From the NCBI RefSeq assembly GCF_003260195.1, contig NZ_QEIH01000008.1, forward strand, positions 124,001 to 188,000: a stretch of DNA of 64,000 nucleotides, in the 5' to 3' direction. The notes under the pieces are model-generated. The model made no database searches. It saw only the letters and a program-made list of their open reading frames with translations, and had not been told where the DNA came from. Positions 1,101 to 23,991 of the stretch are shown here, piece by piece (the stretch's first letter is position 1; each line of letters starts with the position of its first letter). Source of the DNA: Lutibacter citreus (GTDB taxonomy: Bacteria > Bacteroidota > Bacteroidia > Flavobacteriales > Flavobacteriaceae). A program made the translations under genes and the position numbers.

Positions 1101-4100
1101 ATGAAGCAAATTCAAATTATATTAATTTTTCTTCTGTTTATATCTGTAACTGAGTTATTTTCCCAACAAAAATCTTCTAAAAAAATAAACCTTATATGGG
1201 AGGATAATATTGAATTTGTTGTAAATAAAGATGTAACTATAAATACTTGTTTTGTTAAAGGTAATTTGCTGAATGAGAGTTTGATACCTGTTTATGATAG
1301 CGATTGGGAAATTGAGAAAGGTAAAGTATTAACAAGTCATTCAATTAGTAATGTTGTTTATGAAAATATTAATTCAAATTATTCAATTCCAAAAGAATTT
1401 ATAGGAGCTTCATTAAGTTATAATTTAAATATAGCTAATGATAAAGAAAAATCATTTTTAGCTTTAAATTTAATACCAATTATTAAAGTTAAAAATAAAC
1501 TTAAACGCGTTATTTCATTTCAATTGAATTATTCTTTTGGAAATTATAAAAATAGTTTAAAGCATAAAAGTTCAGTTAAAAATTCTGTATTGGCTAATGG
1601 AAAATGGTTTAAATTTTCTATTAATAAAACAGGAGTTTATAAAATTGATAAGAATTTCTTAGAAAAATTGGGCGTAGATGTTAATACTATAAATCCGAAA
1701 AATATTAAGATTTATGGAAACGGAGGTAAAATGCTTTCTCAAAAAAACAGTAATATTAGACCTGATGGACTGCAAGAGAATTCAATTTATATAGGAGGAG
1801 AGTCTGATAGTAGTTTTGATAATGGTGATTTTATATTATTTTATGCTCAAGGACCACATTATTGGGAACATGATTCAAATCCAAATTTAAACACTTCAAG
1901 ACATATATATAATATTTATTCGGAAGAATCATTTTATTTTTTAACTATTAGTGATTCTTTAGGGAAACGAATTTCTACTAAACCTGAGGTTTTGGGAAGT
2001 GCCAATTTAACATTCTCTTCTTTTGATGATTTTACATTTTATGAAAAGGATGAGGTGAATTTGTTTGGAGCAGGACAACAATGGTTTGGAGATGATTTTA
2101 ATTTTGAAAATATTAATTCATATTCAATTCCTTTTGATGAAATTGATTCTTCAGAAAAAGTTAAGGTTAGAGTTAGAGGTGTTGTTCAATCCTATTCAAC
2201 AACTTCAATGGATATTTTAATAAATGACAGTGAAATGTTAAATATTAATTATGGAACATATAGTGGGTTAACAGGGGCTATTGCAAATGAAAACATAGGG
2301 GAATTTGAATTGTCTGGAGATGAGGTAAATATTGATGTAGAGTTTAATAATAATAGTAATCCTGGGGCTAAAGCCTGGTTAGATTATATTGAGGTTTTAG
2401 GACGTAGAAAATTAATAGCGAAAAAGACACAATATAATTTTCGAAATTTTAGCACAGTTGGATCTTTAAATGTTTTTGAATACTCAATTCAAAATAGTAA
2501 TAATATTAAATGGGTTTGGGATGTAACAAATCCATTAGATCCAAAAGTGGTTGAAAACAAATCAACAGGTTCTAATTTTACATTTAATTTTAATGGAGGG
2601 GAATTAGAGGAATATTTATTAATTCCAGAAAATGATTATTACTCACCTAATCAAATAGATCAAAGTGTAGTTGAAAATCAGAATTTACATAGTTTAAATA
2701 ATATTGATTACATATTAATAACACAAAACTACTTATTCAATGAAGCTCAAAGATTAGCTAATTTTCATAAGGTAAATTCAGGATTAATTACAAAAGTAGT
2801 TAGTTTAAATGAAATTTACAATGAGTTTTCATCGGGCTCACAAGATGTAACTGCAATAAGAGATTTTATTAAACATCTTTATAATAATTCAACAACTAAC
2901 AAAATTAAATATGTTTGTTTATTTGGTGATGCTTCTTATGATTTTAAAGATAGAATAGAAGGTAATAACAATATTGTACCTGTTTTTGAGGCGTACAACA
3001 GTTTTAATTTAGCATCTTCATATGTAACAGATGATTATTATGGAATGATGGATGAAAATGAAGGATTAATGAATTCTTTTGAAAGACAAGATGTTGCAAC
3101 AGGTAGAATTCCTGTTACAGATGTTATTGAAGCAAAACAAGTAGTAGATAAAATATTAGATTATTATAGTGAGGATTCATTCGGGAATTGGCGAACAAGA
3201 TTAACATTAATAGCTGATGATATTGATAGTTCGGGAGAAGAAATAATTCAGCTAAATATGGAGAAAATAGCTGATTCAATATCTTCCAAAAAGCCAGTTT
3301 TTAATTTAAATAAAATTTATTTAGATGCCTACACACAAGAAACAACATCTTCAGGGAAAGTTTACCCAACAGTTAATTTGGATATTTTAAATAAAATTGA
3401 AAGCGGAACTTTACTTATTGATTATTTTGGTCATGGAGGAGAAAACGGTTGGGCTAGTGAAGGAATTTTAAGATTAGAAGAAATTCAAAAGATGGAGAAT
3501 AAAAATAAACTACCATTATTTGTTACTGTTACTTGTGATTTCTCTAGATTTGATAACCCTTTAAGAAAAACAGCAGGAGAATTTTTATTTTGGGAACCAA
3601 ATTATGGAGCTGGTTCATTAATTTCTACTTCAAGAGAGATTTATATTAGTGTTGGTCAAGTTTTTAATGACCGTTTAATTAAACCATTGCTAAAATTTGA
3701 TAATGAAAATTTGTCGATTGCAGAATGTTTGGTTGAGGCCAAAAATCAATTTTCAACCACCCAACGTTTCTTTATATTTAATTTTGGAGATCCGGCTATG
3801 CACTTGAGTGTTCCTGAACCTTCTATTAATATTACAGCAATGAACGGTAAGGATGTGGCTACTTCTACAGATACTATTAAAGCTCTTTCATATATTAAAT
3901 TTGAAGGTGATGTTGCAGATATTAATAATAATGTTTTAAGTGATTATAATGGAGAAATTGATATTTCAGTATTTGATAAAGCAATAATAAAATCAACACT
4001 AGATAATGATTCTAAAAATATTAAAATGCAATTTGATGTAATTGATAGTAAAATATTTGAAGGAAGATCTAAAGTTGAAAATGGTAAATTTACCTTTGAT

Positions 4101-4901
4101 TTTGTAGCTCCAAAAGATTTAAAGGTTGCTTATGGTAAAGGTAAACTTAGTTTTTATGCAACGGATAAAAAATCGGATAAAGCAGGTTTTAACTTTGATA
4201 TTACCGTTGGTGGAATAAATAAAAACGCACCAGAAGATACCAAAGGGCCAGTTGTGCAATTATATATGAATGATTTAAACTTTGTTGATGGAGGTACTAC
4301 AGATAGTTCACCAATGTTTATTGGTGTTTTAGAAGATGAAAACGGGATTAATACTTCAATAACGGCAGTAGATCATGATATTGTAGCGATATTAGATAAT
4401 GATCAAGCAAATCCAATAATTTTAAATGATTATTATCAAACCGATTTAAATAATTATAAAAAAGGAAAGGTAACATATTCATTTAAAGATCTTTCAGAAG
4501 GAATGCACACAATAGACCTAAAGGTATGGGATACTTACAATAATTTAACAGAATCAACGTTTACATTTACTGTAACAGATAGTTCAGATTTAATTTTAAC
4601 TAAAGTACTTAATTATCCGAATCCATTTGTTAATTATACCGAGTTTTGGTTTAATCATAATAAACCTAATGAGTTATTAAATATTCAAGTGCAAATTTTT
4701 ACTGTTTCAGGAAAATTAGTTAAAACAATAAATGAAACAGTTCAAGCGGATGGAAATTTATGTAGGTCTTTAAATTGGAATGGTTTAGATGATTTTGGTT
4801 CAAAAATTGGAAAAGGAGTATATGTTTACAAAATTAAAGTAAAAGCAATTAATTCTAATACTACTGCTCATAAAACTGAAAAATTAGTAATATTGCAATA
4901 A
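1101..4901 (+). CDS. porU: PorU, type IX secretion sortase (C25 peptidase family)
   Basis: This 1266-residue protein starts with a signal peptide ending near FSQQ. I chose the ATG at 1101 over the TTG just before it. The C25 (gingipain-like) domain spans roughly residues 530-900, with the catalytic pair visible as H778 in YFGHGGENGW and C812 in TVTCDFSRF. PorU cleaves the C-terminal sorting signal of T9SS cargo at the cell surface and attaches the cargo to lipopolysaccharide. The last 90 residues (LNYPNPF, then SGKLVKT and GKGVYVYKI) look like a type A sorting domain, as in known PorU proteins. It is followed 37 bp downstream by porV, its partner in the attachment complex. Confidence 0.95.
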   Translation: MKQIQIILIFLLFISVTELFSQQKSSKKINLIWEDNIEFVVNKDVTINTCFVKGNLLNESLIPVYDSDWEIEKGKVLTSHSISNVVYENINSNYSIPKEFIGASLSYNLNIANDKEKSFLALNLIPIIKVKNKLKRVISFQLNYSFGNYKNSLKHKSSVKNSVLANGKWFKFSINKTGVYKIDKNFLEKLGVDVNTINPKNIKIYGNGGKMLSQKNSNIRPDGLQENSIYIGGESDSSFDNGDFILFYAQGPHYWEHDSNPNLNTSRHIYNIYSEESFYFLTISDSLGKRISTKPEVLGSANLTFSSFDDFTFYEKDEVNLFGAGQQWFGDDFNFENINSYSIPFDEIDSSEKVKVRVRGVVQSYSTTSMDILINDSEMLNINYGTYSGLTGAIANENIGEFELSGDEVNIDVEFNNNSNPGAKAWLDYIEVLGRRKLIAKKTQYNFRNFSTVGSLNVFEYSIQNSNNIKWVWDVTNPLDPKVVENKSTGSNFTFNFNGGELEEYLLIPENDYYSPNQIDQSVVENQNLHSLNNIDYILITQNYLFNEAQRLANFHKVNSGLITKVVSLNEIYNEFSSGSQDVTAIRDFIKHLYNNSTTNKIKYVCLFGDASYDFKDRIEGNNNIVPVFEAYNSFNLASSYVTDDYYGMMDENEGLMNSFERQDVATGRIPVTDVIEAKQVVDKILDYYSEDSFGNWRTRLTLIADDIDSSGEEIIQLNMEKIADSISSKKPVFNLNKIYLDAYTQETTSSGKVYPTVNLDILNKIESGTLLIDYFGHGGENGWASEGILRLEEIQKMENKNKLPLFVTVTCDFSRFDNPLRKTAGEFLFWEPNYGAGSLISTSREIYISVGQVFNDRLIKPLLKFDNENLSIAECLVEAKNQFSTTQRFFIFNFGDPAMHLSVPEPSINITAMNGKDVATSTDTIKALSYIKFEGDVADINNNVLSDYNGEIDISVFDKAIIKSTLDNDSKNIKMQFDVIDSKIFEGRSKVENGKFTFDFVAPKDLKVAYGKGKLSFYATDKKSDKAGFNFDITVGGINKNAPEDTKGPVVQLYMNDLNFVDGGTTDSSPMFIGVLEDENGINTSITAVDHDIVAILDNDQANPIILNDYYQTDLNNYKKGKVTYSFKDLSEGMHTIDLKVWDTYNNLTESTFTFTVTDSSDLILTKVLNYPNPFVNYTEFWFNHNKPNELLNIQVQIFTVSGKLVKTINETVQADGNLCRSLNWNGLDDFGSKIGKGVYVYKIKVKAINSNTTAHKTEKLVILQ

Positions 4902-6099: not shown

Positions 6100-6582
6100 A
6101 TGAAAAAAGTTGAAATTACAACTAGTATTTCAGTTTATGATTCAATAGATGAACTTCCAAAAGAAGTATTTACTCTTATGAATAAGGCTATTGAAGCTAA
6201 AAAAAAGGCATATGCACCCTATTCAAAATTTTCTGTTGGAGCAGCTTTTTATTTAGAAAGTGGTGAAATTATTACTGGAAATAATCAAGAAAATGCAGCA
6301 TACCCATCTGGGATGTGTGCAGAAAGAGTAGCTATTTGGAAAGTGTCTTCAGAATATCCAGAGGCTAAAATCAAAATATTAGCAATTACGGCTAGTTCAA
6401 GTTCCCAAGTTTTAAAAGAGCCTGTGGCTCCTTGCGGAGCATGTAGGCAAACTTTATCTGAATATGAACTAAAACAAAACAGTAATGTAGAAGTTTATTT
6501 TATGGGAGAAGAAGGTAAGGTGATAAAAACAAATTCTATTTCAGACTTACTTCCAATTGCTTTTGATAAATCATTTCTTTAA
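6100..6582 (+). CDS. cdd: Cytidine deaminase
   Basis: The 160-residue protein is the short, tetrameric type of cytidine deaminase, which converts cytidine or deoxycytidine to uridine or deoxyuridine in pyrimidine salvage. The zinc site is complete: C73 and catalytic E75 in MCAERVA, and C112 and C115 in PCGACRQ. Three cysteines as zinc ligands are typical of the tetrameric class. SKFSVGAA near residues 42-49 is the substrate-binding segment. It sits between porV (24 bp) and a truncated haemoglobin gene (2 bp), so it is probably co-transcribed with the secretion genes without a functional tie. Confidence 0.95.
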   Translation: MKKVEITTSISVYDSIDELPKEVFTLMNKAIEAKKKAYAPYSKFSVGAAFYLESGEIITGNNQENAAYPSGMCAERVAIWKVSSEYPEAKIKILAITASSSSQVLKEPVAPCGACRQTLSEYELKQNSNVEVYFMGEEGKVIKTNSISDLLPIAFDKSFL

Positions 6583-6584
6583 TA

Positions 6585-6968
6585 ATGAAGAAAGATATTG
6601 AGAATAGAGAGGATATTTACCTATTAGTAAAAACATTTTATATAAAATTAATGAAAGACGAATTAGTCCGGCATTTTTTTGTTAATTTTGAAAATCCAAA
6701 ACAGTTAGAAATTCATTTACAAGTTCTAGTTGATTTTTGGGATAATGTATTGTTTTATTCTGGTGGGTATCGTAAAAATGCAATGGCTCCACACCTGAAA
6801 TTACATCAAGAGAAACCTTTTAAGGTGGAACATTTTAAGTGTTGGTTATCAGCGTTTAATAAGACAGTTGATGAGTTGTTTGAAGGTGAAATGGCGCACA
6901 CGGCAAAGTCTAGAGCATTGTCGATAGCCACCGTAATGGAATTAAAAATTTCAGAGTTGAATAAGTAA
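6585..6968 (+). CDS. Group III truncated haemoglobin
   Basis: This 127-residue protein has the length and pattern of group III truncated haemoglobins: FYIKLMKDELVRHFF at helix B, FWDNVLFYSGGY at helix E and HFKCWLSAF at helix G. H70 in PHLKL aligns with the proximal haem ligand of Campylobacter Ctb; this is my alignment by eye. Roles reported for the family include oxygen and nitric oxide handling. It starts 2 bp after cdd, indicating translational coupling. A haem-dependent protein is at home in a genome that makes haem (see 47.9-58.9 kb), but nothing links the two loci directly. Confidence 0.85.
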   Translation: MKKDIENREDIYLLVKTFYIKLMKDELVRHFFVNFENPKQLEIHLQVLVDFWDNVLFYSGGYRKNAMAPHLKLHQEKPFKVEHFKCWLSAFNKTVDELFEGEMAHTAKSRALSIATVMELKISELNK

Positions 6969-7006
6969 TTCAATTTAAATTTGTTTATTAACTTTTTACA
7001 AAAAAA

Positions 7007-8071
7007 ATGAGGTCAGTAATAACAGGAACCGGAAGCTATATTCCAAATGTAGTTAAAAAGAATTCAGACTTTTTAAACCATGAATTTTTAAATGAAGATG
7101 GAACTCCATTTGATCAGGAAAATGAAGTAATTATAGAAAAATTTAAATCTATAACAGGTATAGAAGAACGAAGATATGCTGAGGCTGAAATGAACTCTTC
7201 AGATTTAGGTTCTTTTGCCTCTGAGCGAGCAATTAAAGATGCTGGAATTGATAAGGAAGATTTAGATTATATAATAGTTGCACATAATTTTGGGGATGTA
7301 AAAACAGGAAGCATACAAAGTGATATGTTACCTAGTTTAGCTTCAAGAGTTAAATATAAATTGGGGATTAAAAATCCAAATTGTGTTGCTTTTGACTTAT
7401 TATTTGGTTGTCCAGGATGGGTGCAAGGTGTAATACAAGCTGAAGCTTTAATTAAGTCTGGAATTGCAAAAAAATGTTTAATAATTGGTTCTGAAACATT
7501 ATCTAGAGTTGTTGATCCATATGATCGTGATTCAATGATTTTTGCTGACGGTGCAGGAGCTAGTGTAATTGAGGCGGTTGAAGATGATGAGAACTCCGGA
7601 ATTTTAAGTCATGCAACAAGAACTGATGTTATTGATGAATGTTTTTATTTACATTATGGTAAATCCTTTAATAAGGAGTCAGATCAAAATATTAACTACA
7701 TAAAAATGTTGGGAAGAAAGATTTACGAGTATGGTTTATCTAATGTTCCAATGGCTATGAAAACTTCTTTAGATAAATGCGGAATTGACATTTCAGAAGT
7801 GAAAAAAATATTCATTCATCAAGCTAATGAAAAAATGGATGAACAAATTATAAAAAGATTTTATAGACTATATAAAACTAAAGTACCGGTAGGAGTAATG
7901 CCAATGAATATTCACAGGTTAGGAAATAGTTCTGTAGCAACAATTCCAATATTATTAGATCAAGTGAGACAAGGTCAAATGGAAGGACATGTAGTTAATC
8001 CAGGAGATGTTATACTTTTTGCATCTGTAGGTGCGGGAATGAATATAAATGCTATTGTATATAGATATTAG
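7007..8071 (+). CDS. 3-oxoacyl-ACP synthase III family protein (FabH-like)
   Basis: The 354-residue thiolase-fold protein has the complete KAS III triad: C135 in FGCPGW, H271 in FIHQAN and N307 in HRLGNSS. KAS III enzymes condense acyl-CoA with malonyl-ACP to start fatty acid or polyketide-like chains. It is longer than E. coli FabH (317 residues), with an insertion near residues 25-60, and Flavobacteria usually carry several such paralogues. I therefore cannot say whether it is the housekeeping starter enzyme or one for a specialised lipid. It is last in the co-directional run after the globin gene and is followed by a strong terminator. Confidence 0.85.
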   Translation: MRSVITGTGSYIPNVVKKNSDFLNHEFLNEDGTPFDQENEVIIEKFKSITGIEERRYAEAEMNSSDLGSFASERAIKDAGIDKEDLDYIIVAHNFGDVKTGSIQSDMLPSLASRVKYKLGIKNPNCVAFDLLFGCPGWVQGVIQAEALIKSGIAKKCLIIGSETLSRVVDPYDRDSMIFADGAGASVIEAVEDDENSGILSHATRTDVIDECFYLHYGKSFNKESDQNINYIKMLGRKIYEYGLSNVPMAMKTSLDKCGIDISEVKKIFIHQANEKMDEQIIKRFYRLYKTKVPVGVMPMNIHRLGNSSVATIPILLDQVRQGQMEGHVVNPGDVILFASVGAGMNINAIVYRY

Positions 8072-17176: not shown

Positions 17177-18700
17177 TTAGTCCTCTAAGTTTATATGTTG
17201 ATAGGCTCCAATATCTGCTGGGAAATTGCGTTGAACTCCTAAAATATCAAAAGGAGATTTTGTCGTTCCATTTAAATTAGCTTTGTTATTTCCTTCAGAA
17301 TTTTCCCCAATAATTAATTCATTTTTAAAAGGAGCTTTAAAGTGAGGATCTCCATTAAATATATTTTCTGAATAATGATTTGTATCTTCAAAATTATATT
17401 CTGGAATATTTTTAAGGTTCTCATTAAAATCATTAAATTTTATGAGGTTATTTTTAAATGAATAGTTAAATACAGAACCATCTACCTTATCAATTAATAA
17501 TTCAGTATTAGCGCTTCCTCCAATAATACAATTTGTGAAATTAGCATCATATAAATTTTTTGTAACTATTTTTTGAGTTCCATTTTCATAAAATGATGAA
17601 TAATTATTTATTAAAACACTAGGATATTCTCTTAAACTATTATTCCAGAAATTTACAAATGTAGAATGAGTGAAGTTGTAAGTTCCTCCAGTAGTGCAAG
17701 CTAAGGAAGCTTGTCCGCTATTATTAATAACAAGGTTTTCGCCTTTTATATTTGCTTCTCGTGCTAATAATCCAAAGTTTGAAGAATTGTAAATTTCAGT
17801 ATTGTTAATAGTGAGGGTAGCAGAGGTGTCACTCCCTATAGAGTCCATAATAATTCCTATAGATGCGTTTTTTATTATTGTGTTTTTTATGGAGTGGTTT
17901 TTACTACCAGCTCTTAACCAAATAGCTCCCCATTGCCCTGGAATATCACTAAATATAGGTTCTAATCTATCGCCTTCAAAAGTTACTTTATTTTCTAATT
18001 CTCCTTCAATCTTTAAAGTCGCATTTTTTTCTATGATAATTCCAGAATTTGTGTGAAAATGTATTGTTGCTCCTGCTTTAATTGTAAGAGTTTTATTCTC
18101 AGGAACTGCACAATAACCATAAATTACATAGGGCTTATCATTCGTGAAAGTAGTATTATCTTTTAAGTAAAAACCATTTATTTTTATTGGATTTCCTTCT
18201 GAATTAATTCCTGTATTAATGGTTTCAACAAGTCCATTTAAATCTTTTGAAGGAAATAGAAAGTGTGCATCTTTAACTAAAGTTATTAATTTAACATTTT
18301 GCCCTTTTTTACCATTGTCAAAAACTATGGAATCTTTATAAATTGGATTTGTAATAGCATTGTAATTGATAGTTGTTTCAACAAAAATATAAATACTATC
18401 GTTTGCTAAAATTTCAACATTATCAAATATTTTTCCAGGAATCCCGTCAACATTTAATTTGTAGTTCGAGTTTTCTCCTCTACCTAATTTCACTGATGGT
18501 ATTGAAATTGCGTGGCTACTTTTATTATAAACTTTTAGGTTGTATGTGCTTGATCCTATATTTGTAAAAACAGTATCTAAATAAAGAGTATCTTTTGAAA
18601 AAGATAAATTTCCAGAACTTAAAACTACATCAAAGTCTTTTCTGCAGGAAGCAGTTAAAAATAAGCTGATTGCAAAAATAAATATAAGGGAAATTCGCAT
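17177..18700 (-). CDS. Lipoprotein with right-handed beta-helix repeats
   Basis: The 507-residue protein has a lipoprotein signal with Cys19 in FLTASCRKD. Residues 25-140 look like an immunoglobulin-like sandwich (LSFSKDTLYLDTVFTNIGSS). From about 185 to 400 there are short repeated strands such as LTIKAGATIHFHTNSGIII, SIKNTIIKNASIGIIMD and LTINNTEIYNSSNFG, typical of parallel beta-helix proteins. The tail mentions NFPADIGAYQ, a motif often seen at the end of Bacteroidota beta-helix surface proteins. It may bind or cut a polysaccharide, but I see no catalytic motif. It lies 22 bp after the glutaminyl cyclase gene and is likely co-transcribed with it. Confidence 0.7.
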   Translation of the reverse strand: MRISLIFIFAISLFLTASCRKDFDVVLSSGNLSFSKDTLYLDTVFTNIGSSTYNLKVYNKSSHAISIPSVKLGRGENSNYKLNVDGIPGKIFDNVEILANDSIYIFVETTINYNAITNPIYKDSIVFDNGKKGQNVKLITLVKDAHFLFPSKDLNGLVETINTGINSEGNPIKINGFYLKDNTTFTNDKPYVIYGYCAVPENKTLTIKAGATIHFHTNSGIIIEKNATLKIEGELENKVTFEGDRLEPIFSDIPGQWGAIWLRAGSKNHSIKNTIIKNASIGIIMDSIGSDTSATLTINNTEIYNSSNFGLLAREANIKGENLVINNSGQASLACTTGGTYNFTHSTFVNFWNNSLREYPSVLINNYSSFYENGTQKIVTKNLYDANFTNCIIGGSANTELLIDKVDGSVFNYSFKNNLIKFNDFNENLKNIPEYNFEDTNHYSENIFNGDPHFKAPFKNELIIGENSEGNNKANLNGTTKSPFDILGVQRNFPADIGAYQHINLED

Positions 18701-18722
18701 TTTTATTATTTAAAATATAAAA

Positions 18723-19757
18723 TTACTTTTTAAATAGTTTAATCTCATACAATTTGCTCCAGTGTTTACCTGTAACAAAAAGACGGTTGTTTTCTTTATC
18801 AAATGCTATTCCATTCAATACATCGTCATCTTCCCTTAAATTTTGGTCTTTTTCAATTAATTTTTTTAAGCCATTTAAATCGGCTACACCATCAACTTTA
18901 CCGGAACTAGGGTCTACAATTAAAATAGAATTTTTTTGCCAAATATTAGCGTAAATTTTCCCGTTAATATATTCAAGTTCATTTAATTTTTCAACCTTTT
19001 GTTTGTTGGTATAAGCTTCAATATAACTTTCTTCAATTAAAGTATCTGGGTTTAAGAACCAAATACGTTCAGTTCCATCAGATTTAATAAGTTGCTTACC
19101 ATTATTAGTTAAACCCCAACCTTCACGGCTTTTTGTGTATTTAAATTCTTTCTCTTTTTTAAAAGTTTCTAAATCATAAACCAAACCTATTCCGTCTTGC
19201 CAGGTAAGTTGATATAATTTATTGTTTAAAATAGTTATTCCTTCACCAAAGTAGGTTGCGTCTAAATCTTGTTGTTGTAAAGATTTTCCTGATTTTAATT
19301 CCGTTTTTCTAATATATGAAGATCCTTTTCTTCCTGTGCCTTCATATAAATAACCATTATGATATTCTAAACCTTGAGTGTACGATTTTTCATCATGTGG
19401 ATAGGTATTTATTATCTTGTATGTATAAATTTCAGGAGAAGTATCGGCCATAAAATATACCGCTTTAGTTACCTTTTCAGTTTTATCTTCAAAAAATACA
19501 AGTGCAGTTAATTGATGTTTTCCAAGTCTGAAATCTTTTGTATTAATTTTGGCAGATGTTCCTTCCGAGGTGATTTTTTTATTATCTATTGAAAATTGAA
19601 CAGATTTAATTGGTTTTCCTTCTTTTTCAGAAATGGAAACTTCAAGCACTTCATTAGTTTGAATTTTGCTTGGAGTTTTTAAAACAAACTTATATTCGCT
19701 CTTGCAAGAAATTAAAATTAGAAACAAAAATAAACCTGAAAATGTTTTATATGACAT
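18723..19757 (-). CDS. Glutaminyl-peptide cyclotransferase (plant/bacterial type), lipoprotein
   Basis: The 344-residue protein has a lipobox with Cys18 (LILISCKSEY). After a beta-sandwich of about 100 residues comes a five-bladed propeller of the glutamine cyclotransferase family: YPHDEKSYTQGLEY, GYLYEGTGRKG, YFGEGITIL, LTWQDGIGLVYD, LNELEYINGKIYANIW and LNGIAFD. These enzymes turn N-terminal Gln into pyroglutamate. Many T9SS substrates mature to an N-terminal Gln, so a periplasmic or outer-membrane cyclase fits a T9SS organism; that link is inference. It diverges from rpmE2. Confidence 0.9.
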   Translation of the reverse strand: MSYKTFSGLFLFLILISCKSEYKFVLKTPSKIQTNEVLEVSISEKEGKPIKSVQFSIDNKKITSEGTSAKINTKDFRLGKHQLTALVFFEDKTEKVTKAVYFMADTSPEIYTYKIINTYPHDEKSYTQGLEYHNGYLYEGTGRKGSSYIRKTELKSGKSLQQQDLDATYFGEGITILNNKLYQLTWQDGIGLVYDLETFKKEKEFKYTKSREGWGLTNNGKQLIKSDGTERIWFLNPDTLIEESYIEAYTNKQKVEKLNELEYINGKIYANIWQKNSILIVDPSSGKVDGVADLNGLKKLIEKDQNLREDDDVLNGIAFDKENNRLFVTGKHWSKLYEIKLFKK

Positions 19758-20253: not shown

Positions 20254-21360
20254 ATGCCTATTTATATGGATCGCCACGATATTCCAAGTGAGATATCCGC
20301 AGAACATGTGGCTCAAATGCACGAGGAAGATTTAAAAATTGAACACTTATTTGGTTGTAAAGGGATGACTTATTGGTGTGATGAGAAGAGAAGAACTGCA
20401 TTTTGTTTAATTAAGGCCCCAAATAAGAAAGCGATTCAAGATATGCACCAACATGCGCATGGTGAATACCCTCATAGTATTATTGAAGTTAATGAAAAAA
20501 TTGTTGAATCTTTTTTAGGGAGAATTGAAGATCCGGTAAAAGCACAAAATACAAAGTTAAATATTATTAATGATCCTGCTTTTAGGGTAATAATGGTTAT
20601 TAAAACAAGTAGCTATTTAAATAGGTTAGAAGCAAATCAATTTAGTTTATTTACACAAAAATTTCATAACAGTGTTTTAAAGTCAACAAAGCATTTTAAA
20701 GGAAGAGTTGTTAAAAAGGATAACAATAGTTATCTCGTCTCCTTTAAATCGGTTAGTAATGCTGTTTGGTGCGCTTTAAAAATTCGATCAAATTTCAAAT
20801 ATATTACACCAAAATTTGATTTGAAGAATCGTAAAATGAAGATAGCTCTTAGTTCAGGTATACCGGTATCAGATAAAGAAAGTATTTTTGAAGATGCCAT
20901 TGTTTCTGCCAAAAGGATGTGCGAAATTGTTTCTGAACAATTAGTTATTACAAATGAGGTGAAAGCATTGTACGAAAGTGAAAATAGAAATGATAGTATT
21001 GATAATGATTTAATTAGAATATTAAAACCTACTGAAGAAAAATTCTTAAATCATTTAATGGATTATGTTGAGAAAATTTGGAATAAACCCAATTTTAAAG
21101 TTGATGACTTTAGTAATGATTTAGGGTATAGTAAATCTCAACTTTATAGAAAATTAATTAAGTTGGCGGGTAAATCTTCTAATAATTTTATTAAAGATTA
21201 TAGATTGAAAGAAGCTTTAAAAAAATTATATAAGCACGCTGGTAATATTTCAGAAATTGCTTATGAGTCTGGTTTTAATAGTCCTGCTTATTTTTCGAAA
21301 TGCTTTATGGATAAGTATGGAATTTTACCGTCAAAATACATTCAGCAACATACTGTTTAA
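20254..21360 (+). CDS. Three-domain regulator: DUF4242, degenerate cyclase fold, AraC HTH (copy 1)
   Basis: The 368-residue protein has three parts. Residues 1-88 match DUF4242, the family of the nickel-binding SCO4226 protein (PIYMDRHDIP, MTYWCDEKRRTAFCLI, HGEYPHSIIEV). Residues 108-242 follow the class III nucleotide cyclase pattern: GRVVKKDNNSYLVSF aligns with GxVVKxxGDGFLxxF, and IALSSGIPV, IFEDAIVSAKRM and LVITNEVKAL also fit. Both metal-binding Asp are lost (K117 and N158). Residues 262-365 are an AraC-type double HTH (FSNDLGYSKSQLYRKLI, ISEIAYESGFNSPAYFSKCF). There is no signal or membrane segment, so it is a cytoplasmic one-component regulator. A paralogue starts 19 bp downstream. The ligand is unknown. 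Confidence 0.8.
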   Translation: MPIYMDRHDIPSEISAEHVAQMHEEDLKIEHLFGCKGMTYWCDEKRRTAFCLIKAPNKKAIQDMHQHAHGEYPHSIIEVNEKIVESFLGRIEDPVKAQNTKLNIINDPAFRVIMVIKTSSYLNRLEANQFSLFTQKFHNSVLKSTKHFKGRVVKKDNNSYLVSFKSVSNAVWCALKIRSNFKYITPKFDLKNRKMKIALSSGIPVSDKESIFEDAIVSAKRMCEIVSEQLVITNEVKALYESENRNDSIDNDLIRILKPTEEKFLNHLMDYVEKIWNKPNFKVDDFSNDLGYSKSQLYRKLIKLAGKSSNNFIKDYRLKEALKKLYKHAGNISEIAYESGFNSPAYFSKCFMDKYGILPSKYIQQHTV

Positions 21361-21379
21361 TAATTCTTAAATATAGATT

Positions 21380-22450
21380 ATGCCTTTATACATGGATTTT
21401 CACAAATTGGGTTCTGGTGAGATTAAATTAGATGATCTTATTAAAGCTCATGCTGCGGATGTGGCTATCCAGGAAGAATATGGTGTCTTCGAAAAAAAAT
21501 ATTGGGTAAATATTGAAACTAAAACCTTGTTTTGTCTTACACAAGCACCAAATAAGGAAGTTTGTAATGAGGTTCACAAAAAATCTCATGGAAATACAGC
21601 TTGTAATATTATAGAGGTTTCTGAAGAGGAATTTAGCATGTATTTAGGAGTTGGAACAAGTAAAAATGATTTAGCTCATACGCTTTCTGGAGAATTGGAT
21701 TCTGGTTATAGAACGCTATTAATGCTTAGTATTTATGACTTTACGGGGAATTATAATCACTATATAATTAAAATACAAAAATTAATACAAAATTATAATG
21801 GTGTTATTGTTATGCAGCCAACTGAAGATATTAAGGCTTCATTTATTTCTGCATCTGAAGCCGTAATTTGTGCTATATCTATTTTTGAATTACTTAAATC
21901 TATTCCTGATTTTTACTTAAATAAATTATCAATTGTAACAGGAAAACCCGTAGATGAATTAGGAGACAATTTATATGAAGAAGCTAATAAAAAGGTTGAG
22001 CAATTAAATAAAATTGGGTCAAGTAATTATATTTATATTGATACATACACAAAACTATTGTCTGATAAAGAGTCGGATACAGTAAAAAGGAATCAAAAAT
22101 ACATTAAGGTTATAAGTGAATTAAATTTTTCATTTTTAGATGAATTATTAAATGTTTTGAATAGTGAATTGTATAATTCCGATTTTAAAAGTGTACAATT
22201 ATATACTCCCTTAGGATTGAGTAAATCACAAGCCTACAGGAATATTAAGGCTTTAACAAGAATGTCTCCAAACAAATTTATTCAAGAGTTAAGGCTTCGT
22301 AAATCTCTAGATATGCTTAAGCTTAATAATAAAACTATAGCAGAAATAGCCTATGATTTAGGCTTTAATAGTCCAACTTATTTTACCAGAGTCTTTAAAA
22401 GAAGATATAGAATGCTTCCTACAGTATTTGCTAGAAATTCAATTAAATAA
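21380..22450 (+). CDS. Three-domain regulator: DUF4242, degenerate cyclase fold, AraC HTH (copy 2)
   Basis: The 356-residue paralogue has the same order: DUF4242 at residues 1-90 (PLYMDFHKL, KYWVNIETKTLFCLTQAPNKE), a more diverged cyclase-like domain at about 108-228 (GVIVMQPTEDIKASF, then SIVTGKPVDELGDNLYEEANKKVEQL), and an AraC HTH at 250-350 (LGLSKSQAYRNIKAL, IAEIAYDLGFNSPTYFTRVFKRRY). The metal positions read S117 and E149, so catalysis is not expected. Four His are shared with copy 1 (H8, H24, H66, H70 here). Overall identity is low except in the HTH, suggesting an old duplication with different signals. The next gene, 146 bp on, encodes a FAD oxidase, a plausible target. Confidence 0.8.
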   Translation: MPLYMDFHKLGSGEIKLDDLIKAHAADVAIQEEYGVFEKKYWVNIETKTLFCLTQAPNKEVCNEVHKKSHGNTACNIIEVSEEEFSMYLGVGTSKNDLAHTLSGELDSGYRTLLMLSIYDFTGNYNHYIIKIQKLIQNYNGVIVMQPTEDIKASFISASEAVICAISIFELLKSIPDFYLNKLSIVTGKPVDELGDNLYEEANKKVEQLNKIGSSNYIYIDTYTKLLSDKESDTVKRNQKYIKVISELNFSFLDELLNVLNSELYNSDFKSVQLYTPLGLSKSQAYRNIKALTRMSPNKFIQELRLRKSLDMLKLNNKTIAEIAYDLGFNSPTYFTRVFKRRYRMLPTVFARNSIK

Positions 22451-22503
22451 ATTTATTTTTTGAATTTTAATGAATCAATTGTATCATTTTTTGAACTAAA
22501 ACT

Positions 22504-22536
22504 AACATTGTTTCAGGTTTTAATGTTCCAAATTTG
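22504..22536 (+). promoter_or_regulatory. Possible promoter and operator upstream of the FAD oxidase gene
   Basis: An inverted repeat AACATT-N12-AATGTT (22504-22527) overlaps a TTG at 22508-22510, which lies 18 bp before CAAATTTG (22529-22536, one mismatch to TAnnTTTG). The overlap would suit control by a dimeric regulator. The repeat is short and AT-rich, so chance is possible. Confidence 0.35.
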
Positions 22537-22596
22537 TAGTGTTAAATCTTTGTAAATAAGATTTTTCAGCTACTTATTAACTAAAAAAATTAAAAC

Positions 22597-23991
22597 ATGA
22601 AAAATTCAGTAAAAAGTTTAGATCCTTCATTAATTGAAGGATTGGCTTCACAATTAAGGGGTAAACTTATTAAGCCAACAGATGCAGAATATAACGACAC
22701 ACGTAAGGTGTATAATGCAATGATAGATAAAAAGCCAGGACTATTTGCTATGTGTGTAGATGTTGCAGATGTAATGGCATCAATAAATTTTGGAAGGAAT
22801 AATGATTTATTAATTGCAGTAAGAGGAGGAGGACACAATGGAGGCGGATTAGGACTTTGTGATGACGGTTTAGTGATTGATTTATCAGGAATTAAATTTG
22901 TTCTAGTAGATACTTCAGATAATACGGTAAGAGTAGGAGGTGGTAATCTCTGGGGAGAAGTTGACCATGCAACATACCCCTTTGGGCTTGCTGTTCCTGC
23001 AGGGATGGTATCTACAACAGGTGTTGGCGGATTGACTTTAGGAGGTGGAATTGGTTATTTAACAAGAAAATATGGACTTACAATAGATAATCTATTAGAA
23101 GCAGATATGGTTTTAGCTGATGGTTCATATGTTACAGTAAATAAAAATAAAAATACCGATTTATTTTGGGCTATCCGAGGTGGTGGTGGAAACTATGGGG
23201 TAGTTACTTCTTTCAAATTTCAGGCGCATCCTGTTAAAACGGTGTTTGGAGGGCCAACCTTATGGCCAATAGAGCAAACAGAAGAAATAATGGAGTGGTA
23301 CCATAATTTTATAAATAAGGCTCCAGAAGAATTGAATGGTTTTATAGCAACAATGGTAATTCCTGGTCCTCCTTTTCCAGAGCATTTACATAAAAAACAA
23401 TTCTGTGCAATTGTTTGGTGTTATTCAGGAGATATGGAAAAAGCTAAAGAAGCTTTTAAGCCAATTTTGGCAAAGAATCCTATATTTGAGCATGTAGGTG
23501 AAATGCCTTACCCAGCTATTCAATCAATGTTTGATGGTTTATTGCCAAATGGGTTACAGTGGTATTGGAGAGCTGACTTTTTTAATGAATTAGGCACAGA
23601 GTTGAGAAAGCAACACTTAAAGTTTGGTTCTAATAATCCATCTTTGTTGTCCCAAATGCATATGTATCCAATTTCTGGAGCAGCAAGTAGAGTGGGAGTT
23701 GAAGAAACACCTTGGGCTTATCGTGACGCTAAATACGCTGGAGTAATTTGTGGAGTAGATCCAGATCCTAAAAATGCAAATAAAATAACAAAATGGTGTA
23801 AAGAATATTGGGAAGCTTTGCATCCATATGCTGCAGGAGGAGCTTATTCAAATTTTATGATGGATAATGAAGGGCAGGAGCGTATTAAAGCAAGTTACAA
23901 ACACAACTATAATCGTTTAGCTAAAATAAAGGCTATATATGATCCAAATAATGTCTTTAGAGTTAATCAAAATATTAAACCAAGTAATTAA
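22597..23991 (+). CDS. FAD-binding oxidoreductase with berberine-bridge C-terminal domain
   Basis: The 464-residue protein belongs to the vanillyl-alcohol oxidase/berberine bridge superfamily. The FAD domain shows AVRGGGHNGGGLG with H80, the usual covalent FAD ligand, followed by GVGGLTLGGGIGYLTRKYGL. The second covalent ligand, a Cys in GxC before this motif, is V138 here, so a single 8-alpha-histidyl bond is expected. The C-terminal BBE motif is present (YSNFMMDNEGQERI and YDPNNVFRVNQNI). Family members oxidise sugars, alcohols or alkaloid-like molecules with O2, forming H2O2. There is no signal peptide. It follows the two DUF4242 regulators and ends before a shared terminator. Confidence 0.88.
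   Translation: MKNSVKSLDPSLIEGLASQLRGKLIKPTDAEYNDTRKVYNAMIDKKPGLFAMCVDVADVMASINFGRNNDLLIAVRGGGHNGGGLGLCDDGLVIDLSGIKFVLVDTSDNTVRVGGGNLWGEVDHATYPFGLAVPAGMVSTTGVGGLTLGGGIGYLTRKYGLTIDNLLEADMVLADGSYVTVNKNKNTDLFWAIRGGGGNYGVVTSFKFQAHPVKTVFGGPTLWPIEQTEEIMEWYHNFINKAPEELNGFIATMVIPGPPFPEHLHKKQFCAIVWCYSGDMEKAKEAFKPILAKNPIFEHVGEMPYPAIQSMFDGLLPNGLQWYWRADFFNELGTELRKQHLKFGSNNPSLLSQMHMYPISGAASRVGVEETPWAYRDAKYAGVICGVDPDPKNANKITKWCKEYWEALHPYAAGGAYSNFMMDNEGQERIKASYKHNYNRLAKIKAIYDPNNVFRVNQNIKPSN

Follow-up and report, generated by a model that had tools for sequence, protein, structure and literature searches.

Tandem AraC-type regulators with a DUF4242 head and a predicted pseudo-cyclase domain in Lutibacter citreus, and a conserved direct repeat as their candidate operator

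The locus described here lies in a stretch of 64,000 nucleotides of the Lutibacter citreus genome (contig NZ_QEIH01000008.1, positions 124,001 to 188,000 of the forward strand; hereafter the window), in which three genes of the plus strand directly follow one another. The first two genes, R1 (20254–21360, 368 amino acids) and R2 (21380–22450, 356 amino acids), encode regulators, are separated by a spacer of only 19 bp and are followed by OX (22597–23991, 464 amino acids), which encodes an EncM-like flavin adenine dinucleotide (FAD) oxidase with the Pfam domains FAD_binding_4 and BBE. The gap between R2 and OX holds a predicted AraC-type operator (22469–22508, plus strand), a direct repeat of 21-bp period with the half-sites TGAATCAA (22471–22478) and TGAACTAA (22492–22499), and further downstream a putative −7 box, CAAATTTG (22529–22536, plus strand). 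Both regulators were characterized by open reading frame (ORF), Pfam match, AlphaFold model and fold comparison, R1 additionally by a profile search against the PDB and R2 by sequence identity and its place in a tree. An earlier note on this DNA had described two adjacent genes, 19 bp apart, with the same order of three domains, and ORFs, Pfam, the PDB profile and the AlphaFold models all agree with this description.

Each regulator starts with a DUF4242 (SCO4226-like) head, matched by PF14026 at residues 4–79 of R1 (E 1.1e-17, 64.4 bits) and 4–80 of R2 (E 6.8e-15, 55.5 bits), and ends in an AraC-type helix-turn-helix (HTH), matched by HTH_18 at residues 288–364 of R1 (E 6.9e-17, 62 bits) and 278–352 of R2 (E 1.8e-18, 67.1 bits). 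All four matches pass the respective cut-offs of 28.5 bits (PF14026) and 33.6 bits (HTH_18), and R1 and R2 are the only PF14026 matches in their own genome. For the middle domain (about residues 106–250 of R1) no Pfam family scored above its cut-off in either regulator, and Guanylate_cyc was not listed for the single proteins at E up to 1. When 74 relatives were combined into a profile and searched against the PDB, class III cyclases came up (3mr7, 5e-17; Ma1120, 4e-15; Rv1900c, 2e-10) and, for the head, SCO4226 (E 8e-16). In the AlphaFold models, whose predicted local distance difference test scores are 90.5 (R1) and 91.1 (R2), the fold of Ma1120 (5d0h) was recovered with a Z of 16.1 and a root-mean-square deviation (rmsd) of 3.5 over 150 residues for R1, and with a Z of 14.4 and an rmsd of 3.7 over 139 residues for R2. 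The C-terminal HTH models match 3lsg with Z values of 16.5 (R1) and 16.7 (R2), and this double HTH is shared with the one-component regulators of the AraC/XylS family such as AraC, MarA, ToxT and Rns. AraC itself uses a cupin-like arm as sensor, whereas the sensor part of R1 and R2 consists of DUF4242 and the predicted pseudo-cyclase. The head of the R1 model superimposes on SCO4226 (4oi6) with a Foldseek rmsd of 1.3 Å over 77 columns; cyclases and AraC domains take up the VIA fold-comparison lists, which hardly probe the head, so that its assignment rests on Foldseek and the profile.

The neighbourhood of these regulators was compared in a sample of 120 genomes of the family, L. citreus included, of which 32 contain PF14026 and 27 contain the oxidase, which gave 29 matches with an E of up to 1e-30. 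An oxidase gene follows downstream, on the same strand and within three genes, at 18 of the 31 tabulated regulator loci (the window included), and counted from the other side 18 of the 29 oxidase matches have a regulator no more than three genes upstream. Because a regulator spans a few kb of a genome of 3–5 Mb, adjacency by chance would be expected in the order of 1 of 1000 cases. The earlier note had suggested looking for a repeatedly adjacent oxidase, and this comparison, once carried out, found one. In the same slot other loci carry a truncated globin (PF01152), a DUF4242 protein, a cupin, a SnoaL-like protein, an NnrU-like protein or a nitrilase together with a DinB-like protein, as assigned by Pfam for one representative per family. 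The DUF4242 proteins found as cargo comprise 90–150 amino acids and often show, by eye, a signal-like start. The regulator is thus the constant part, whereas about eight gene families replace each other as cargo. The local sensory and metabolic unit that had been proposed is well supported by the neighbourhood and the conserved direct repeat, and its tie to one specific oxidase has to be given up.

Among 103 regulator chains (family sample and named loci, fragments included, with the L149 pair being spurious) at least 78 have a recognized cargo and at least 40 the oxidase. These numbers are lower bounds, since the ATG-first greedy gene calls are crude and spurious small ORFs interrupt some chains; the named loci are the best 80 of 548 matches and not a random sample. 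Of the 12 chains with a single regulator of the R2 type, 7 continue with a nitrilase and 1 with the oxidase. Even at the position of the window locus, before pdhC, relatives differ in their content, with globin plus oxidase at L033, a DUF4242 protein alone at L039 and L054, a DUF4242 protein plus cupin at L052 and nothing at L058. In the phylum, regulators (E up to 1e-40) were detected in 18 of 395 genomes, again including L. citreus. Spread by viruses was considered and dropped, for 11 pattern-matching stretches turned up in viral contigs, none of which encodes a relative of the regulators.

The new element at these loci is the direct repeat of 21-bp period in the gap between regulator and cargo. 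Of 63 distinct gaps of 60–300 bp before recognized cargo, 23 contain a repeat of period 21 in which 10 or more of 12 bases are identical, compared with 0–2 gaps at every other period between 13 and 40 and with 1.4 gaps after dinucleotide shuffling. The consensus of the 40-column matrix is AATGAnTCAAAAnTnnnATTTTTTGAATnAAATGTAnnAT. A matrix built from 21 family gaps scored 10 bits or more in 36 of the 39 test gaps, which are less than 75% alike to the training gaps and were not thinned among themselves, against 0.07 for mononucleotide-shuffled gaps. At the same threshold the full matrix recognized 57 of 65 post-regulator gaps, part of which had gone into it, and only 6 of the 210 other same-strand gaps at the same 80 loci. 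Of the four control gaps above 15 bits, three precede oxidase, DUF4242 or globin cargo. Where a cargo DUF4242 gene lies ahead of the regulator (L040, L059, L061, L126–L129), it is the cargo that is preceded by the site. For comparison, the 1.5-kb flanks of nine oxidase loci remote from any regulator (9 of 11 matches, a fragment and a 31% match being left out) were scanned and no site of 20 bits was observed, indicating that the site goes with the regulator and not with the oxidase. AraC-type sites are known to have a period of 21 bp, and the repeat found by computation before the promoters at R1/R2-type loci is likewise a direct repeat of this period; it looks like an AraC-type operator, probably an activating one.

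Downstream of 35 of 59 sites (not thinned) the motif TAnnTTTG was found, and in 32 of these 35 cases it starts exactly 39 bp past the start of the second repeat unit. The same motif is given as the sigma-A −7 box of Flavobacterium psychrophilum in PMC9723704. In the window, CAAATTTG at 22529 occupies the expected place with one mismatch. A pattern of the R2 type, allowing up to three mismatches, matched only once in the 5.1-Mb L. citreus genome, namely at the window site. Furthermore, five loci whose only regulator is of the R2 type (L060, L155, L160, L165 and L167) have the first half-repeat TGAATCAATTGT in common with the repeat of the window, so that R2 probably reads the oxidase promoter, and R1 would be its partner, a second input or a left-over.

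We consider it likely that R1 and R2 are ligand-responsive regulators of the AraC family that control, and most likely activate, the promoter immediately behind them, on which they would act via the repeat of 21-bp period. This explanation builds on what was obtained by computation, namely the domain order, the cyclase fold, the lost metal ligands, the conserved neighbourhood, the conserved repeat and the spacing between repeat and −7 box. Both proteins would be cytoplasmic one-component regulators whose DUF4242 head binds a small ligand and whose cyclase-fold middle, devoid of its catalytic metal ligands, acts as a coupler and probably also as a dimerization module; a head ligand acting via the cyclase fold, as proposed in the earlier note, would fit the architecture and the dead active site. 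The AraC HTH would bind the direct repeat, which in the cargo promoter lies ahead of the −7 region, and thereby most likely activate rather than repress it, with R2 probably reading the window repeat directly and R1 being a partner or second input. The cargo (the oxidase here; elsewhere globin, nitrilase, cupin, SnoaL-like, NnrU-like or DUF4242 protein) would act on the inducer or its damage, that is, in a detoxifying role.

With respect to the signal, the alternatives concern the head and the middle domain. The head is the best-conserved part of the regulators, D6, H8, H23, D26, W41, C51 and H65 each being present in 72–74 of 74 sequences, and it has both its fold and this residue pattern in common with SCO4226, a nickel-binding DUF4242 protein of Streptomyces (PDB 4OI3/4OI6), which in contrast to R1 and R2 is not fused to a cyclase fold and an HTH. 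It is this likeness, together with the PF14026 match above cut-off and the retained His, Asp and Cys residues, that would make R1 and R2 sensors of nickel or another divalent metal and the oxidase a metal-responsive gene. According to PMC4186839, SCO4226 binds Ni2+ with a low affinity (dissociation constant 10 µM), its gene is induced by Ni2+, and its Ni-1 site, formed by Asp43, Ser46 and His76, was suggested to be conserved. The residues aligned to these ligands are Asp, Arg and Ile (Ile77) in R1 and Asn, Thr and Ile in R2; only the Asp is therefore kept in R1 and no ligand is identical in R2, although its Thr could in principle replace Ser. Nickel sensing by R1 and R2 was rejected on these grounds; the earlier note had called the head nickel-binding-type and had inferred a metal or small molecule as its ligand, and the metal part of this reading is unsupported. 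Moreover, both proteins (37.8 and 51 bits) miss the cut-off of 125 bits of the SCO4226 equivalog NF033706 in NCBIfam, the affinity of SCO4226 itself is low, and the recurrent cargo families include no metal transporter, although cupins and globins are themselves able to bind metal or haem. Consequently, the conserved residues of the head point to a conserved site of some kind, with no evidence for nickel, and a metal sensor appears decidedly improbable. Even less credence is due to the idea that the middle domain continues to signal by producing or binding a cyclic nucleotide or nucleoside triphosphate. Its class III fold is clear, and Lys and Arg are kept in R1 at two further active-site positions, but the positions of the two catalytic metal-binding Asp residues hold Lys and Asn in R1 and Ser and Glu in R2, and among the 74 relatives only 2 have Asp at the first position and only 16 at the second. 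R1 and R2 hence share the fold of the class III adenylyl cyclases Ma1120 and Rv1900c without their metal-binding Asp residues; an active cyclase was rejected, and the middle domain of the regulators is best described as a predicted pseudo-cyclase that has lost its catalytic metal ligands.

The remaining alternatives concern the sign of regulation and the division of labour between the two regulators. That the regulators repress their cargo instead of activating it we judge unlikely: nothing specific speaks for it beyond the fact that AraC proteins can do both, and the repeat lies upstream of the −7 box without overlapping it, the box starting 39 bp past the start of the second unit, a placement like that of AraC activator sites, which adjoin the −33/−35 region. 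It is also conceivable, if on balance doubtful, that only R2 works at the window promoter and that R1 is the left-over of a former R1-oxidase unit taken over by R2. The match of TGAATCAATTGT to loci with a sole R2-type regulator and the lack of an R1-type site in the L. citreus genome (one pattern, up to three mismatches) are in line with such a takeover, as is genome G113, in which the single R1-type gene is frame-broken, yet the oxidase and an R2-like site remain. R1 of the window, however, is intact and shares 75% identity with its nearest relative, three genomes of the family (L038, L041 and the window) have an R1-R2 pair ahead of the oxidase, and other tandem pairs stand before SnoaL plus oxidase in four loci of the Balneolaceae type (L213, L215, L216 and L219). 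R2 and R1 share only 29% identity and fall into separate old clades of a quick tree (125 rows, without bootstrap), in which the R2 clade of 17 rows obtained a Shimodaira-Hasegawa-like approximate likelihood ratio test value of 100; a recent duplication of R1 into R2 was rejected for these two reasons. Within this tree R2 of the window and R2 of L041 are sisters (100) and their R1 partners belong to different subclades, the R2 relatives of L038 and L138 are joined with R1-type proteins of yet another subclade, and the Balneolaceae-type genomes (L159, identical to L213, as well as L215, L216 and L219) combine two further clades before SnoaL plus oxidase. Given these differing combinations, the tandem pairs look as if they had been assembled more than once.

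Several results weigh against regulation of the downstream promoter via the repeat as we propose it. Eight of the 65 post-regulator gaps score below 10 bits, and 8 of the 15 phylum loci are without a site of 20 bits, the repeat being weak or absent in several distant subclades; among these eight, L220 and L221 are cut or partial, and of the seven phylum loci that do have a site, L212 and L213 duplicate named loci which had gone into the matrix. One pattern of the R1 type with up to three mismatches had no match in the L. citreus genome, compared with one match of the reversed control, and a second site of the R1 type in this genome was rejected at this level. Covariation between regulator and operator is unsupported as well: of the top 200 pairs by mutual information 42 lie in the HTH, which accounts for 28% of all pairs, and the top pairs are explained by clade structure. 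On the side of the neighbourhood, 11 of the 29 family oxidase matches, including the fragment (G119) and the 31% match (G096), are not beside a regulator, and in the automatic tally 25 of the 103 regulator chains have no recognized cargo, spurious small ORFs hiding the oxidase that L056, L103 and L168 do have. Finally, the standalone DUF4242 cargo belongs to another subfamily, which of the seven head residues listed above shares only C51 and H65 with the heads (31 of 31 rows); G70 is shared in 27 of 31 rows, and D6, H8, H23 and D26 in none of the 31. One binding site common to sensor head and DUF4242 cargo is accordingly unsupported, and the two need not bind the same thing.

The regulator family itself is real and conserved, comes with a predicted operator and represents AraC-type one-component regulation with a pseudo-cyclase as predicted coupler. 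As a tentative extension, which we put forward as a possibility only, a ligand-gated cyclase may have become a transcription factor. The DUF4242 head, joined to an intact cyclase in alphaproteobacteria, would here drive a dead cyclase dimer. Rearrangement of this dimer upon ligand binding would space two AraC HTHs on the 21-bp repeat, and the old paralogues R1 and R2 would form a pair that switches in response to two inputs. A single conserved type of promoter would have been re-used for differing, swappable detoxification genes across Bacteroidota and Balneolota. In the open-access text of PubMed Central no description was found of DUF4242 with AraC or of the R1/R2 regulator family, nothing linking EncM, flavin oxidase and Bacteroidetes, and no work joining even three of truncated hemoglobin, FAD-binding oxidoreductase, AraC family and flavobacteria. 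A widespread regulator family gains a testable target and a predicted site, and a case is added of a dead cyclase domain as candidate signal coupler within a DNA-binding protein. Furthermore, regulator, operator and swapped cargo offer genetic handles on the function of EncM-like oxidases and DUF4242 proteins in marine bacteria.

Heads and cyclase domains in the same order were also observed in alphaproteobacterial fusion proteins of about 272–280 amino acids, two of three of which show the linker motif FLGRIxDP of the R1/R2 family (Pfam was run on one of the three). In contrast to R1 and R2, they carry no HTH, and both metal Asp residues are kept in 3 of 3. Their genes lie on plasmids (L178, L179 and L180, at about 4001–4843), with nickel-binding protein as sole annotation.

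The closest solved relative of OX is EncM (332 bits, whole length), the flavin-N5-oxide enzyme of the enterocin pathway. While EncM belongs to a polyketide pathway, no polyketide genes were recognized by eye among the ORFs at 16–29 kb around OX. His80 of OX aligns with EncM His78 and is a His in 50 of 50 oxidase rows, the window included; EncM His78 is named as the flavin-linking residue in PMC7662398. The alignment also covers a second column, occupied by Val (44 rows) or Ile (6 rows) in all 50 oxidases. This column we take to be the position of the second, Cys-borne flavin link of berberine bridge enzymes, and a bicovalent flavin of this type was rejected for OX for that reason. With His80 kept and Val or Ile at the Cys position, a single covalent flavin link via His80 is predicted. 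The designation as a berberine-bridge-type FAD oxidase in the earlier note thus holds for the FAD oxidase and is loose for the type, EncM being nearest and the Cys link apparently absent. OX has no other close copy in its genome, the one further match (26% identity) covering query residues 38–186.

Oxidases of the OX type were also seen in other surroundings. In G075 and G104 the regulator-remote oxidases (L079, 87–1406; L080, 2933–4252) lie 82 and 37 bp from the gene of a 439-amino-acid fusion of 2Fe-2S ferredoxin, class III cyclase and globin (by Pfam for L079, by length and start for L080), which is a second link of such an oxidase with cyclase and globin. Methyltransferase genes stand beside remote oxidases at L080 (682–1470, Methyltransf_31 by Pfam) and L096 (627–1412, by eye); both may resemble arsenite methyltransferases. 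In G021 a lone oxidase (L086, 1495–2871) is located between ruvB and queG, the place of the regulator in several other genomes. On a Caballeronia plasmid (L182, 3497–5341) an oxidase 61% identical to OX is divergent from the gene of an 85-amino-acid DUF4242 protein, which is followed by an AAA-LuxR regulator; oxidase and DUF4242 thus meet outside Bacteroidota with another type of regulator. Upstream of R1, on the minus strand of the window (17177–19757), a glutamine cyclotransferase-like and a second, lipoprotein-like protein are encoded, which occupy the same place in L032 and L044. The latter locus (6214–7334, G113) has window-like upstream genes and a single regulator of broken frame (ORFs of 130 and 203 amino acids), with an open oxidase frame and the operator present.

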